DNA of 32,005 bases from contig CP070677.1 in the NCBI GenBank assembly GCA_020352495.1, positions 1,268,428-1,300,432 on the forward strand, written 5' to 3'. This DNA is from Candidatus Latescibacterota bacterium. GTDB taxonomy: Bacteria > Krumholzibacteriota > Krumholzibacteriia > WVZY01. This document shows, in pieces, positions 4,251 to 7,622 of this stretch (the stretch's first letter is position 1; every line of letters starts with the position of its first letter). Below the pieces are notes generated by a model. That model was not told the origin of the DNA and did not search any database. It worked only from the letters and a program-made list of their open reading frames with translations. The translations under genes were made by a program, and so were the position numbers.

Positions 4251-5378
4251 ATGGCGCCAACCGACTCGGCGAGTTTGACGGAGGCGTTTGCCAAATTGAA
4301 AAAACTACTGCTGGTTTTGACATCCACCCTTCTGTCGCTGGTAATCGTCGAAGTGATAGCGCGCCTACTCCTTTCACAACCTGGAGTCCGTCCTTTTGAT
4401 CCAAACCGGCTCCGGGGTCTGTTAACTTTCCATCCCACAAGGCATTATGCCTACACACCCGGTTTTGTAGGAACCACGGACACCGAGGAGTATCACACCG
4501 ACGTAAGGATCAACGCTTTGGGTCTGCGCGACGACGAGGTCGATCCAGATTCGAGCGTGGACGTACTGGCGGCGGGTGACTCCTTCACCGTTGGTCATGG
4601 CGTTCAGGCCTACGAGGCGTGGCCATCTCAGCTCGAATCGTCTCTCAATTCGACTTCGGTATTGGGTCGGAAGATCCGTGTGTTGAACACAGCCGTCTCC
4701 GGCTACAGCTTGACGCAGATCGCGCTTCTTATTGACGAGTTATTGTACCTTGAGCCGCGACTCGTTGTGCTCGGCCTCTACGCGGCAGCGGATTTGCGAC
4801 GGCACGACCCCTATGTGTTTTACGGCGGCCACATGGTGTTGCGAAGCATGAAACCGCATCTGAGATTGCAAGAGGACGCGTTTCTCTATTCGCCATATGA
4901 CAACGACTCGATTCGACGGCTCCATTTCTGGTTCATGGAGAACTTCCATGTCGCCGCGTATGTTCTCGATGCCATCCATCGTCTTACAGGAGAATCATCG
5001 GATTGGACCGACCAACGGTTTCAAGCCGAAAAAAAGAAAATCTCTTTATTGGATGAACTGGGACGACTCAACGAGCGGTTAAAAGCACGCGAAATCGGCC
5101 TCGTCGTCCTTCTGGTGAATCATCAGGCAAAAGACGGCACCTTTAATCCTTTGCAGAAGAGATACAACTCTGCGGTGACAAATTACTGCAGAAAAGAGGG
5201 AATCACGATATTTGATCCCCTTCCCTCGCTCGAGTTGCGGTCTCGAGGCAGTCCGTTGTTCAGAATCGGCGAGGACCACCATTGGTCCAGACATGCGCAC
5301 GCGCTTGTCGGGACACAGGTCGCCGAGTTTTTGCTGCAGCAGCAATGGATCGTAGACGTGTTGCGCGCCCACGAATGA
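4251..5378 (+). CDS. Membrane-anchored SGNH/GDSL hydrolase-like protein
   Basis: This 375-residue protein has one N-terminal hydrophobic helix (about residues 19-42, preceded by KLKK), then an extracytoplasmic SGNH-like domain. The nucleophile block is AAGDSFTVGHGV (about 107-118), and the catalytic Asp/His end is GEDHHWSRHAH near residue 345, resembling AlgX/AlgJ-type acyl-handling SGNH proteins. Such enzymes add or remove acetyl groups from cell-surface glycans; no substrate can be inferred here because the gene has no glycan-pathway neighbours. Start choice is open. The ATG at 4251 has no ribosome binding site at normal distance. A TTG at 4296, 11 bases after CGGAGG, would give a compact signal anchor starting with KKLLLVL. 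The gene has its own promoter and no partner gene. Confidence 0.75.
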   Translation: MAPTDSASLTEAFAKLKKLLLVLTSTLLSLVIVEVIARLLLSQPGVRPFDPNRLRGLLTFHPTRHYAYTPGFVGTTDTEEYHTDVRINALGLRDDEVDPDSSVDVLAAGDSFTVGHGVQAYEAWPSQLESSLNSTSVLGRKIRVLNTAVSGYSLTQIALLIDELLYLEPRLVVLGLYAAADLRRHDPYVFYGGHMVLRSMKPHLRLQEDAFLYSPYDNDSIRRLHFWFMENFHVAAYVLDAIHRLTGESSDWTDQRFQAEKKKISLLDELGRLNERLKAREIGLVVLLVNHQAKDGTFNPLQKRYNSAVTNYCRKEGITIFDPLPSLELRSRGSPLFRIGEDHHWSRHAHALVGTQVAEFLLQQQWIVDVLRAHE

Positions 5379-5538: not shown

Positions 5539-5616
5539 TGGTGCCCCCGAGACGACTCGAACGTCCGACACGCGGTTTAGGAAACCGCTGCTCTATCCTG
5601 ACTGAGCTACGGGGGC
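5539..5616 (-). tRNA. tRNA-Arg, anticodon CCT
   Basis: The minus strand folds into a standard cloverleaf. The acceptor arm is GCCCCCG/CGGGGGC, the D stem GCTC/GAGC, the anticodon loop TTCCTAA with anticodon CCT (reads AGG), and the T loop TTCGAGT. The discriminator is A and the 3' CCA is encoded. No convincing promoter was found just upstream (to the right). Confidence 0.93.
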
Positions 5617-5943
5617 ACGTGGGGTCAAAGGTTTATCCGGGCCACAATCGGACGAAAATCTCTCCGTTTCTTTTCACGGTCGGACAACGGCCAAGACTCG
5701 TGCTGTAGTGAAACGTCGCGCCTCCATCATAGTCGGCGACCCATGCGGGCGCAATAATTTTCAGTGGCGCTCCTGCATCGATGTGCGCGCAAAATCCAAA
5801 AAAACAATTGATTTTTGAGGCGCCGGTATGGTAAAATCTCTCAAACTACATCTGAGCTAAAGCAGCGTAGCGATATTGCCTGACACTACACTTTCCGACC
5901 CAAACAGGAGGTCTTAAGCGATCCGACTGTGAAAGGAGCGTCT
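5617..5943. other. Intergenic region between tRNA-Arg and the first exported paralogue
   Basis: There is no gene here. The right half has a plus-strand promoter (5808-5837) and a leader of about 100 bases. The leader contains a perfect anti-Shine-Dalgarno complement, AGGAGGT, at 5906-5912, with no start codon in range. The functional ribosome binding site is the later GAAAGGAG at 5931-5938. Confidence 0.5.
5808..5837 (+). promoter_or_regulatory. Promoter of the first exported paralogue
   Basis: TTGATT (5808-5813) and TAAAAT (5832-5837) are separated by 18 bases. The second paralogue has the same 18-base layout and also TGG just before the -10 box, which suggests shared origin or regulation. 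Confidence 0.5.
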
Positions 5944-6534
5944 ATGCGTAAGTGTTTTCTTGCCCTTGGGTTGGCGATAATATCGATCACTTTCGTCTTC
6001 GGTGTCGCCAATGCCCAATTTCCGTCTCCTCACCCGTTCTACGCAGTGTACTTCGATGATACCTATCAAACCGAGGCTTATCCGGTGGCCCCGGATCCGT
6101 GCCCCGGTGTGCTGGTGATCGATACACTCTACGTGATGCTTGTCAACGCCAATGCATGGGTCCTGGCCACGGAGTTCTCGGTAAGTTACCCTCCAGCGAT
6201 TAGCTGGATCACGGACCTTGATAAGTGGCCGACGAACATCGGAAACACTCCGACAGGACTTTCCCAGGGCCGAGACACACCGTTGAACGGGTTTGCCGGA
6301 GCGGTTGAGTGCTGCAAGGTGTTGGTACAGTGGATGTGCGACGCGTGTGATCCGGCATACATCAACAACGAGATTGTCGTAGACAAACACCCAGCATCCG
6401 TCCGTGACTACCCTTCATACGTTGACCTGTTCTTCGTCGAGCACGAGGCGATTGGGCTGACGTCGCTCATTTGTGCGACGATTCCGACAGAGGACACAAC
6501 CTGGGGTAGAGTGAAGGCGTTGTATACGCGGTAG
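5944..6534 (+). CDS. Exported protein of unknown function, tandem paralogue 1
   Basis: The 196-residue product starts with a clear signal peptide (MRKCFLALGLAIISITFVFG, cleavage after NAQ or ANA). The mature part has blocks shared with the next gene: AVYFDxTxQTEA, PCPGV, DTLYV, a TEFSVSYPP-like strand, PTGxS, NGFAGAV, CDxC, and a C-terminal CATxPTExTTWxRVKALYT. The EF-x-x-x-YP strand pattern hints at a small beta-sandwich, but I recognise no named family. The conserved cysteines (PCPG, CDxC, CAT) may form disulfides outside the cytoplasm. An in-frame GTG at 5929 is less likely than this ATG, which sits 5 bases after GAAAGGAG. The long own leader and separate promoter indicate independent transcription. 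Confidence 0.8.
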   Translation: MRKCFLALGLAIISITFVFGVANAQFPSPHPFYAVYFDDTYQTEAYPVAPDPCPGVLVIDTLYVMLVNANAWVLATEFSVSYPPAISWITDLDKWPTNIGNTPTGLSQGRDTPLNGFAGAVECCKVLVQWMCDACDPAYINNEIVVDKHPASVRDYPSYVDLFFVEHEAIGLTSLICATIPTEDTTWGRVKALYTR

Positions 6535-6801
6535 TTCGATCTATTCGACGGCAAATCGGTGAGTTGTTGGGATGCCGCCGCGGCCGTGGTACTGTTGGCA
6601 AGTTCCACGGTCCATGGCGGCATCTTGTTTGGACGTTCCACGGTTTGTTTGACCGCCGTTCGCGCAGTATGAGAATCTGCAGCGCTACGCTCACCCCCAG
6701 GCTGTTCGGCGTGTTGCCCCCCTCCATTCCAAACCTCACAAGAACCACTTATCGTTTGACGCTTTCAACGAAGAATTGACCAATATCAAACTGGAAATTG
6801 A

Positions 6802-6820
6802 CTCAAGTCATTGGCTTGAG
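6802..6820. repeat. Inverted repeat CTCAAG-7-CTTGAG
   Basis: Perfect 6-bp arms (6802-6807 and 6815-6820) flank a 7-base spacer and overlap the -35 box of the second paralogue. This size and position suit an operator. Confidence 0.6.
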
Positions 6821-6840
6821 CCACAACGTTGTGGTACAAT
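6811..6840 (+). promoter_or_regulatory. Promoter of the second exported paralogue
   Basis: TTGGCT (6811-6816) and TACAAT (6835-6840) are separated by 18 bases. A second -35-like hexamer, TTGACT, lies just upstream at 6798-6803. The spacer is almost entirely a 14-bp perfect palindrome, so binding there would directly affect polymerase. Confidence 0.55.
6821..6834. repeat. Perfect 14-bp palindrome CCACAACGTTGTGG
   Basis: This palindrome fills the spacer between the -35 and -10 boxes, abutting the inverted repeat on its left and the -10 box on its right. It is a strong candidate operator for a dimeric repressor. Confidence 0.75.
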
Positions 6841-6849
6841 ACCGCCCGT

Positions 6850-6863
6850 CAAACCACGGTTTG
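6850..6863. repeat. Inverted repeat CAAACC-2-GGTTTG
   Basis: Perfect 6-bp arms lie around a 2-base centre at the predicted transcription start or just downstream. It could be a third protein site or a 5'-end RNA hairpin. Confidence 0.55.
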
Positions 6864-6998
6864 TGCAGCGGTTACATGTTCAGTTCATAGCGGAGATGAG
6901 AGCGGAAACACTCGATCACATCTCCATCGTTCCTGGCTAAGTGTCAGCTTGTGTGCTAGCACCGATGTTGAAGTCGGCTTCGAGCGAAAGGAGTTGGT

Positions 6999-7622
6999 AT
7001 GTTTAAACGCCTCGTTGCCACCGGGATTGTCGTTGTGGTGATCGCGTTATCCGTTGTCATCACCAACGCGCAAACCCCGTATGTAGCTGTGTACTTCGAT
7101 CGTACCTTCCAGACGGAAGCCAAACCGCCATACCCACCTCCGCAGCCTTGCCCTGGAGTTGGCGTCTTTGACACGCTGTATGTTGCGGCGTCGAATTTCA
7201 ATATCCTGGTCACGGGCGCAGAGTTCCAGATCGACTATCCGGCTCTTTACATGACATGGGTCGGGGAGTGGAGCCCCACGTTTACTCACCCGCAGTTTGG
7301 GGAATTGGCTTACTGGCCCGTCAAACTCGGAACCTCGCCAACAGGGGTTTCGTTGGGCGCCGGAGATATCACATTTCAGAACGGTTTTGCCGGGGCTGTT
7401 CGCCTATTGGAAGTGCTGATCATGTGGACGTGCGATGTCTGTACGGTCGAACAGGGTCTCATCGTTAACGGAAACCCATTGGGGTTTGGAACGTTTCCCG
7501 CGCTCATCGAGCGGGAGACGTACATCCCGTACTTTGGAATCGGGATGACCGCTCTCGTTTGTGCCACTTTGCCAACGGAGGAGACCACCTGGAGTAGAGT
7601 TAAAGCGTTGTACACTGACTGA
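6999..7622 (+). CDS. Exported protein of unknown function, tandem paralogue 2
   Basis: The 207-residue product has a signal peptide (hydrophobic ATGIVVVVIALSVVIT, cleavage near TNAQ) and the same block order as its neighbour about 460 bases upstream: YVAVYFDRTFQTEA, PCPGV, DTLYVAASNFN, AEFQIDYPA, GTSPTGVS, NGFAGAV, MWTCDVC, and the tail CATLPTEETTWSRVKALYT. It is longer mainly through a proline-rich turn near residues 42-50 and an aromatic insert near residues 89-107. The ATG follows GAAAGGAG by 5 bases, the same spacing as paralogue 1. No function can be assigned. A role as a secreted or surface structural or binding protein is only a guess from its size and beta-rich pattern. Confidence 0.8.
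   Translation: MFKRLVATGIVVVVIALSVVITNAQTPYVAVYFDRTFQTEAKPPYPPPQPCPGVGVFDTLYVAASNFNILVTGAEFQIDYPALYMTWVGEWSPTFTHPQFGELAYWPVKLGTSPTGVSLGAGDITFQNGFAGAVRLLEVLIMWTCDVCTVEQGLIVNGNPLGFGTFPALIERETYIPYFGIGMTALVCATLPTEETTWSRVKALYTD

Follow-up and report, generated by a model that had tools for sequence, protein, structure and literature searches.

A short C-terminal tag on exported proteins of Candidatus Latescibacterota and other phyla, possibly read by type IX secretion components

Two neighbouring genes of a Candidatus Latescibacterota bacterium encode the exported proteins P0001 and P0002, which end in nearly the same short sequence. They lie in the window analysed here, a stretch of 32,005 nucleotides (G000:C1:1268428-1300432) of the source genome, G000, a single contig of 4.31 Mb. 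The ending is almost certainly a real and portable C-terminal tag of exported proteins. There is good support for regarding it as a sorting tag of about 17 residues with no transmembrane segment, and it very probably acts in sorting, export or anchoring. Tentatively, with a probability of roughly 40%, we propose that it represents a separate class of signal for the type IX secretion system (T9SS), some 17 residues in length and lacking a beta-sandwich, which many uncultured phyla would use beside the known type A sorting domains. The features of the two genes are as follows.

5932..5938, + strand: ribosome-binding site of the P0001 gene, AAAGGAG (read from the sequence)
5944..6534, + strand: P0001, exported protein of 196 residues, tag carrier (open reading frame)
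5944..6018, + strand: predicted signal peptide of P0001, residues 1-25, MRKCFLALGLAIISITFVFGVANAQ (sequence; hydropathy heuristic)
6019..6480, + strand: body domain of P0001, of an unnamed family without Pfam, NCBIfam or PDB match
6481..6531, + strand: C-terminal tag of P0001, residues 180-196, IPTEDTTWGRVKALYTR
6987..6993, + strand: ribosome-binding site of the P0002 gene, AAAGGAG (read from the sequence)
6999..7622, + strand: P0002, exported protein of 207 residues, tag carrier (open reading frame)
6999..7073, + strand: predicted signal peptide of P0002, residues 1-25, MFKRLVATGIVVVVIALSVVITNAQ (sequence)
7074..7568, + strand: body domain of P0002
7569..7619, + strand: C-terminal tag of P0002, residues 191-207, LPTEETTWSRVKALYTD, with Ser in place of Gly after the Trp

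Both proteins begin with a hydrophobic signal sequence whose last residues are NAQ, align over their full length with 40% identity (BLASTP 2e-41) and share the same block order (AVYFD, PCPGV, DTLYV, EF...YP, PTG, NGFAGAV, CDxC). Leaving the final residue aside, the last 19 residues of their tails differ at only three positions (CATIPTEDTTWGRVKALYT versus CATLPTEETTWSRVKALYT). The original prediction, made from the sequence alone, had described two exported paralogues with a shared block order and a near-identical end, and the open reading frames, the alignment and the tails bear this out. It had also called them tandem, which is right in that the genes are neighbours and point in the same direction; however, 464 bases separate them, and the genome has about 15-20 copies, these two included.

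A search of G000 with P0001 returned full-length paralogues together with many matches in which only the last 20 residues of an otherwise unrelated open reading frame were aligned. The DNA pattern TGGGGNNNNVTNAARNNNHTNTWY, which encodes WGx[VIL]Kx[LMI][YF], gave 55 matches in the genome versus none for the reversed control, far more than chance would give and in line with the prediction that the tail might also be found on other secreted proteins of this organism. All 55 matches were in an open frame, and in 52 of them the stop codon came 9-11 residues from the Trp. Of the three that overran, L015 looks degraded (55 residues from the Trp), the match at 3453429 is several residues longer and the one at 3211286 may be due to chance. 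W, G and K were fixed by the search pattern and the neighbouring residues were free; among the 52 tags, E at position -4 from the Trp (40/52), T at -1 (45/52), P at -6 (36/52) and V or I at -7 (40/52) were nevertheless conserved. The conserved stretch amounts to about 16-18 residues, with the consensus [VI]-P-[TVA]-E-x-[ST]-[TS]-W-G-x-[IV]-K-[AS]-[LM]-[YF]-x(0-3)-COOH, in which the residues past the Tyr are variable and optional. Since the pattern misses P0002, with its Ser for Gly, the number of 55 tags is an underestimate.

Synonymous codons were identical between tags in 39.5% of cases, compared with 36.4% expected. The codons are thus nearly randomised, indicating that conservation acts at the protein level, and their diversity rules out a recent duplication of the tail DNA. 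It also bears on the explanation that there is no signal and that the tail is conserved merely through recent paralogy. The P0001 and P0002 genes are indeed paralogues, yet the tag is present on unrelated folds and in other phyla, with nearly random codons, and we give this explanation a negligible chance.

Several observations concern individual copies of the tag. Tags in which the Tyr is followed by a single residue numbered 10 on the minus strand of G000 and 0 on the plus strand, possibly by chance. At L082 (G000:C1:3096888-3098293), three tag-bearing paralogues with near-identical signal peptides stand in tandem, and a second cluster (G000 1863804-1867602) holds at least four carriers. Two copies are apparently decaying: L015 (G000:C1:1865829), where the frame continues beyond the tag, and L010 (G000:C1:1105201-1105452), where the invariant Trp reads Cys and which is otherwise a near copy of the C-terminal half of L003 (part masked).

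The proteins that carry the tag are largely exported and otherwise diverse. A simple hydropathy rule assigned a signal-like N-terminus to 36 of 45 unmasked carriers and to 5 of 22 other genes within the window (Fisher P ~1e-5). Right-handed beta-helix bodies were found in 5 of 46 tag proteins, and further bodies included BACON, CHRD, a proprotein-convertase P domain, choice-of-anchor W, a diheme-like fragment and many unknowns. Choice-of-anchor domains, as named by NCBI, are ectodomains seen with different C-terminal anchors. The tail had been thought to be a sorting, anchoring or processing signal, or a binding site, and these dozens of exported carriers with unrelated bodies support that view. 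In L013 (G000:C1:2466062-2469493, minus strand), an extra region lies between the body and the tag, which shows that the two are separable; two stretches of this region resemble dockerin or EF-hand repeats (DLDGDGFVSIVDF), and Pfam calls neither. A second large exported family with the tag (L016-L020, L024, L028 and related loci; GxxGNSQTGVxxGYG...IEVVDC...) has a distantly similar body. The carriers L087:355-1044 (minus strand; LFVVSC) and L104:967-1530 (plus strand; LICLSC) have a lipobox-like N-terminus and are possible lipoproteins; if so, they would argue for export over anchoring as the role of the tag.

Tag matches were found in all 80 searched genomes of the phylum (1-55 each; control, 0-3 per genome), and in genomes with only 1-3 matches some of these may be due to chance. 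A stricter pattern, requiring the stop codon after one residue, was run on 387 genomes and gave a single match in total with the reversed control. Outside the phylum, it was matched in 19 of 307 genomes, the strongest with 54, 22, 21, 20, 15, 13 and 12 matches. Without the stop, the pattern gave 15-64 matches in the eight strongest outside genomes, and ordinary genomes were at control level. The loci outside the phylum again encoded signal-peptide proteins ending in S/T-W-G-x-I/V-K-x-L-Y-R, including NHL-repeat and starch-binding (CBM20) proteins. The tag therefore occurs in several other phyla and is not lineage-specific, contrary to what had been suggested.

The body of P0001 and P0002 has a different distribution. 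With a profile of the body domain, 25 of 78 genomes of the phylum proved to encode homologues, so that the body defines a phylum-level, multi-copy family, of which the two window proteins are not founding members as had been proposed. That the family is unrecognised did hold: neither protein matched Pfam, their only NCBIfam match was a sub-threshold one attributed to chance, and a PDB profile search with the bodies gave no match. AlphaFold2 did not yield a usable model of the two proteins (mean predicted local distance difference test score, pLDDT, of 31); a cohesin- or Ig-like sandwich is conceivable for the body. A weak Spirochaetaceae match of 26 residues (L031), from a scan of genome contigs, was taken as chance. 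In one paralogue, L004 (G000:C1:831198-831796), the signal peptide and the body are in different frames, suggesting a frameshift or an assembly error.

We considered whether the tag corresponds to a known type of sorting signal. Like PEP-CTERM, IPTL-CTERM, GlyGly-CTERM and MYXO-CTERM, it is short, sits at the C-terminus and recurs in each genome on dozens of exported proteins that are otherwise unrelated. Unlike PEP-CTERM-type tags, whose three parts include a transmembrane helix and a basic cluster, it has no membrane-spanning helix; a tag of this type was ruled out by the stops lying so close to the Trp, with no transmembrane segment after the motif. None of the CTERM motif models appeared in the NCBIfam tally of tag proteins. 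The start of the tag (VPTExxTWG) superficially recalls the IPTL motif, a resemblance that serves as a lead only. The C-terminal beta-signal of outer-membrane barrels was also ruled out, since the carriers that could be identified have soluble folds (beta-helix, BACON, CHRD or P-domain) and the hydrophobicity of the 10-residue tail does not alternate with the period of a strand (z -0.3 at 180 degrees). Among open-licence papers, we found no description of the tag motif or of sorting signals in these phyla.

The most direct evidence for a link with T9SS came from the ends of the homologous proteins. Among the complete non-redundant open reading frames of the fetched loci, 31 homologues ended in the tag, 5 in a type A domain and 0 in neither. 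Five type A-bearing homologues that were scored (L012 and L014 in G000; L135, L161 and L162 in relatives) reached 34-45 bits on TIGR04183, the model of the type A domain (Por secretion tail), for a cut-off of 23. The tag and the type A domain thus replace each other on homologous bodies. Type A sorting domains were present, many per genome, in all 78 searched genomes of the phylum. Outside it, 17 of the 19 tag-positive genomes encoded SprA, versus 79 of 307 overall (hypergeometric P 2.5e-9, a value that treats genomes as independent, without correction for ancestry, and thus overstates the case), as did all 11 genomes with two or more tag matches; the two tag-positive genomes without SprA had one match each. 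All 12 of the tag-rich genomes examined had genes for a PorV-like protein and a C25 (PorU-like) peptidase, and in 11 the two genes were neighbours. G000 itself encodes SprA (G000:C1:1464951-1466180) and, adjoining each other, a PorV-like protein (2490238-2491146) and a C25 peptidase (2492356-2493489). In Bacteroidota, PorV recognises the type A domain and PorP/SprF-like shuttles the type B domain, and the domain helps to set the final destination (PMC12618676). The replacement and the co-occurrence suggest that components of T9SS may read the tag, a proposal for which we consider the chances to be even.

Several points weigh against assigning the tag to T9SS. Outside the phylum, 62 SprA-positive genomes had no match to the stricter pattern, and co-occurrence of tag and T9SS may reflect shared ancestry. 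The tag genes showed no linkage to PorV-like shuttle genes, the nearest being 7.9 kb away. The tag contains no recognisable type A or type B domain and is shorter than any described T9SS signal that we found (43-55 residues; PMC11969387). Finally, the carriers include at least one apparent lipoprotein (L087), which would already be anchored in a membrane.

Part of this would fit a dedicated outer-membrane or periplasmic receptor unrelated to T9SS, which would read the tag for sorting or anchoring, its co-occurrence with T9SS then being due to shared descent of the phyla. That the tag is portable and at the extreme C-terminus of exported proteins, that many SprA-positive genomes lack it, and that scans of tag proteins with hidden Markov models (HMMs) detected no resemblance to type A domains would all agree with such a receptor. 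Yet the tag alternates with type A domains on one body family, and SprA-negative genomes outside the phylum lack it, save the two with a single match; a dedicated receptor seems to us possible, though rather unlikely.

The tag might instead be recognised in periplasmic quality control or maturation, or by a partner, for instance by binding a protease or chaperone, without any function in transport. This would suit its C-terminal place and short length, and also its variable, optional last residues. However, the carriers are surface-type proteins, including one with a choice-of-anchor domain, and the tag swaps with a known export domain, which makes this explanation very improbable.

How the tag compares with T9SS signals bears on whether it could be derived from one. 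Like the type A signal, it is C-terminal and is borne by Sec-exported proteins of varied bodies in the same genomes; unlike it, it has about 17 residues instead of an Ig-like beta-sandwich of about 70-100. At E 0.01, none of 46 tag proteins matched TIGR04183. It shares with type B signals its C-terminal position, but it is short and unlinked to PorV-like genes; TIGR04131 (type B) had no match in the NCBIfam tally of tag proteins, and the PorP/SprF models were not searched. In Prevotella intermedia, T9SS type A signals have shrunk to domains of 43-55 residues, found alongside long ones and made of three strands, with motifs B, D and E seen by type A HMMs (PMC11969387). According to the same report (PMC11969387), green fluorescent protein can be neither secreted nor attached without the final 22 residues of Hbp35. 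The tag resembles these short domains in being a shortened C-terminal signal beside long ones, but it is about one-third as long and has its own motif. A 17-residue tag would be either a further reduction of the type A domain or an independent signal.

If it were such an ultra-minimal type A domain, its invariant G and K would be remnants of the conserved Gly and the terminal basic residue of motifs D and E. The precedents for shrinkage and the one basic residue kept near the end of the tag are in line with this. Against it, no intermediate forms were seen, no scanned tag protein matched TIGR04183 and the tag has no GxY strand motif. Its hydrophobic moment peaks at 120-140 degrees, which is neither clearly helix nor strand. 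We therefore think such a remnant unlikely.

Under the proposal that T9SS components read the tag, tag proteins would be exported by Sec via their signal peptide, as the signal sequences support. The free C-terminal tag, to judge from its position and conservation, would then be recognised in the periplasm by envelope machinery that also serves type A sorting domains. Replacement and co-occurrence point to a next step in which the protein is handed to the T9SS translocon or enters a shared pathway of surface attachment; the T9SS reader would be SprA with PorV or a similar shuttle. The protein would thereby be passed across or onto the outer membrane, for secretion or surface display, with release, anchoring or cleavage as a candidate last step. 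The tag would thus do in about 17 residues the job performed by the beta-sandwich of 70-100 residues in type A substrates.

Elsewhere in the window, the upstream neighbour of the two genes (4251-5378) encodes a protein that resembles GDSL/SGNH hydrolases and has a hydrophobic segment at its N-terminus, and four tRNA genes are found at 5539, 9324, 13142 and 17524.

Sorting tags allow one to predict which proteins reach the cell surface. As many as about 60 proteins per genome bear the present tag, most of them unannotated, in phyla apparently known mostly from metagenomes. Should T9SS be the reader, this system would need a far smaller minimal recognition signal than thought, and if the tag forms a separate class, recognition of T9SS substrates would need no folded C-terminal domain. 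If T9SS is not the reader, there would be an unknown route of export or anchoring in these bacteria.
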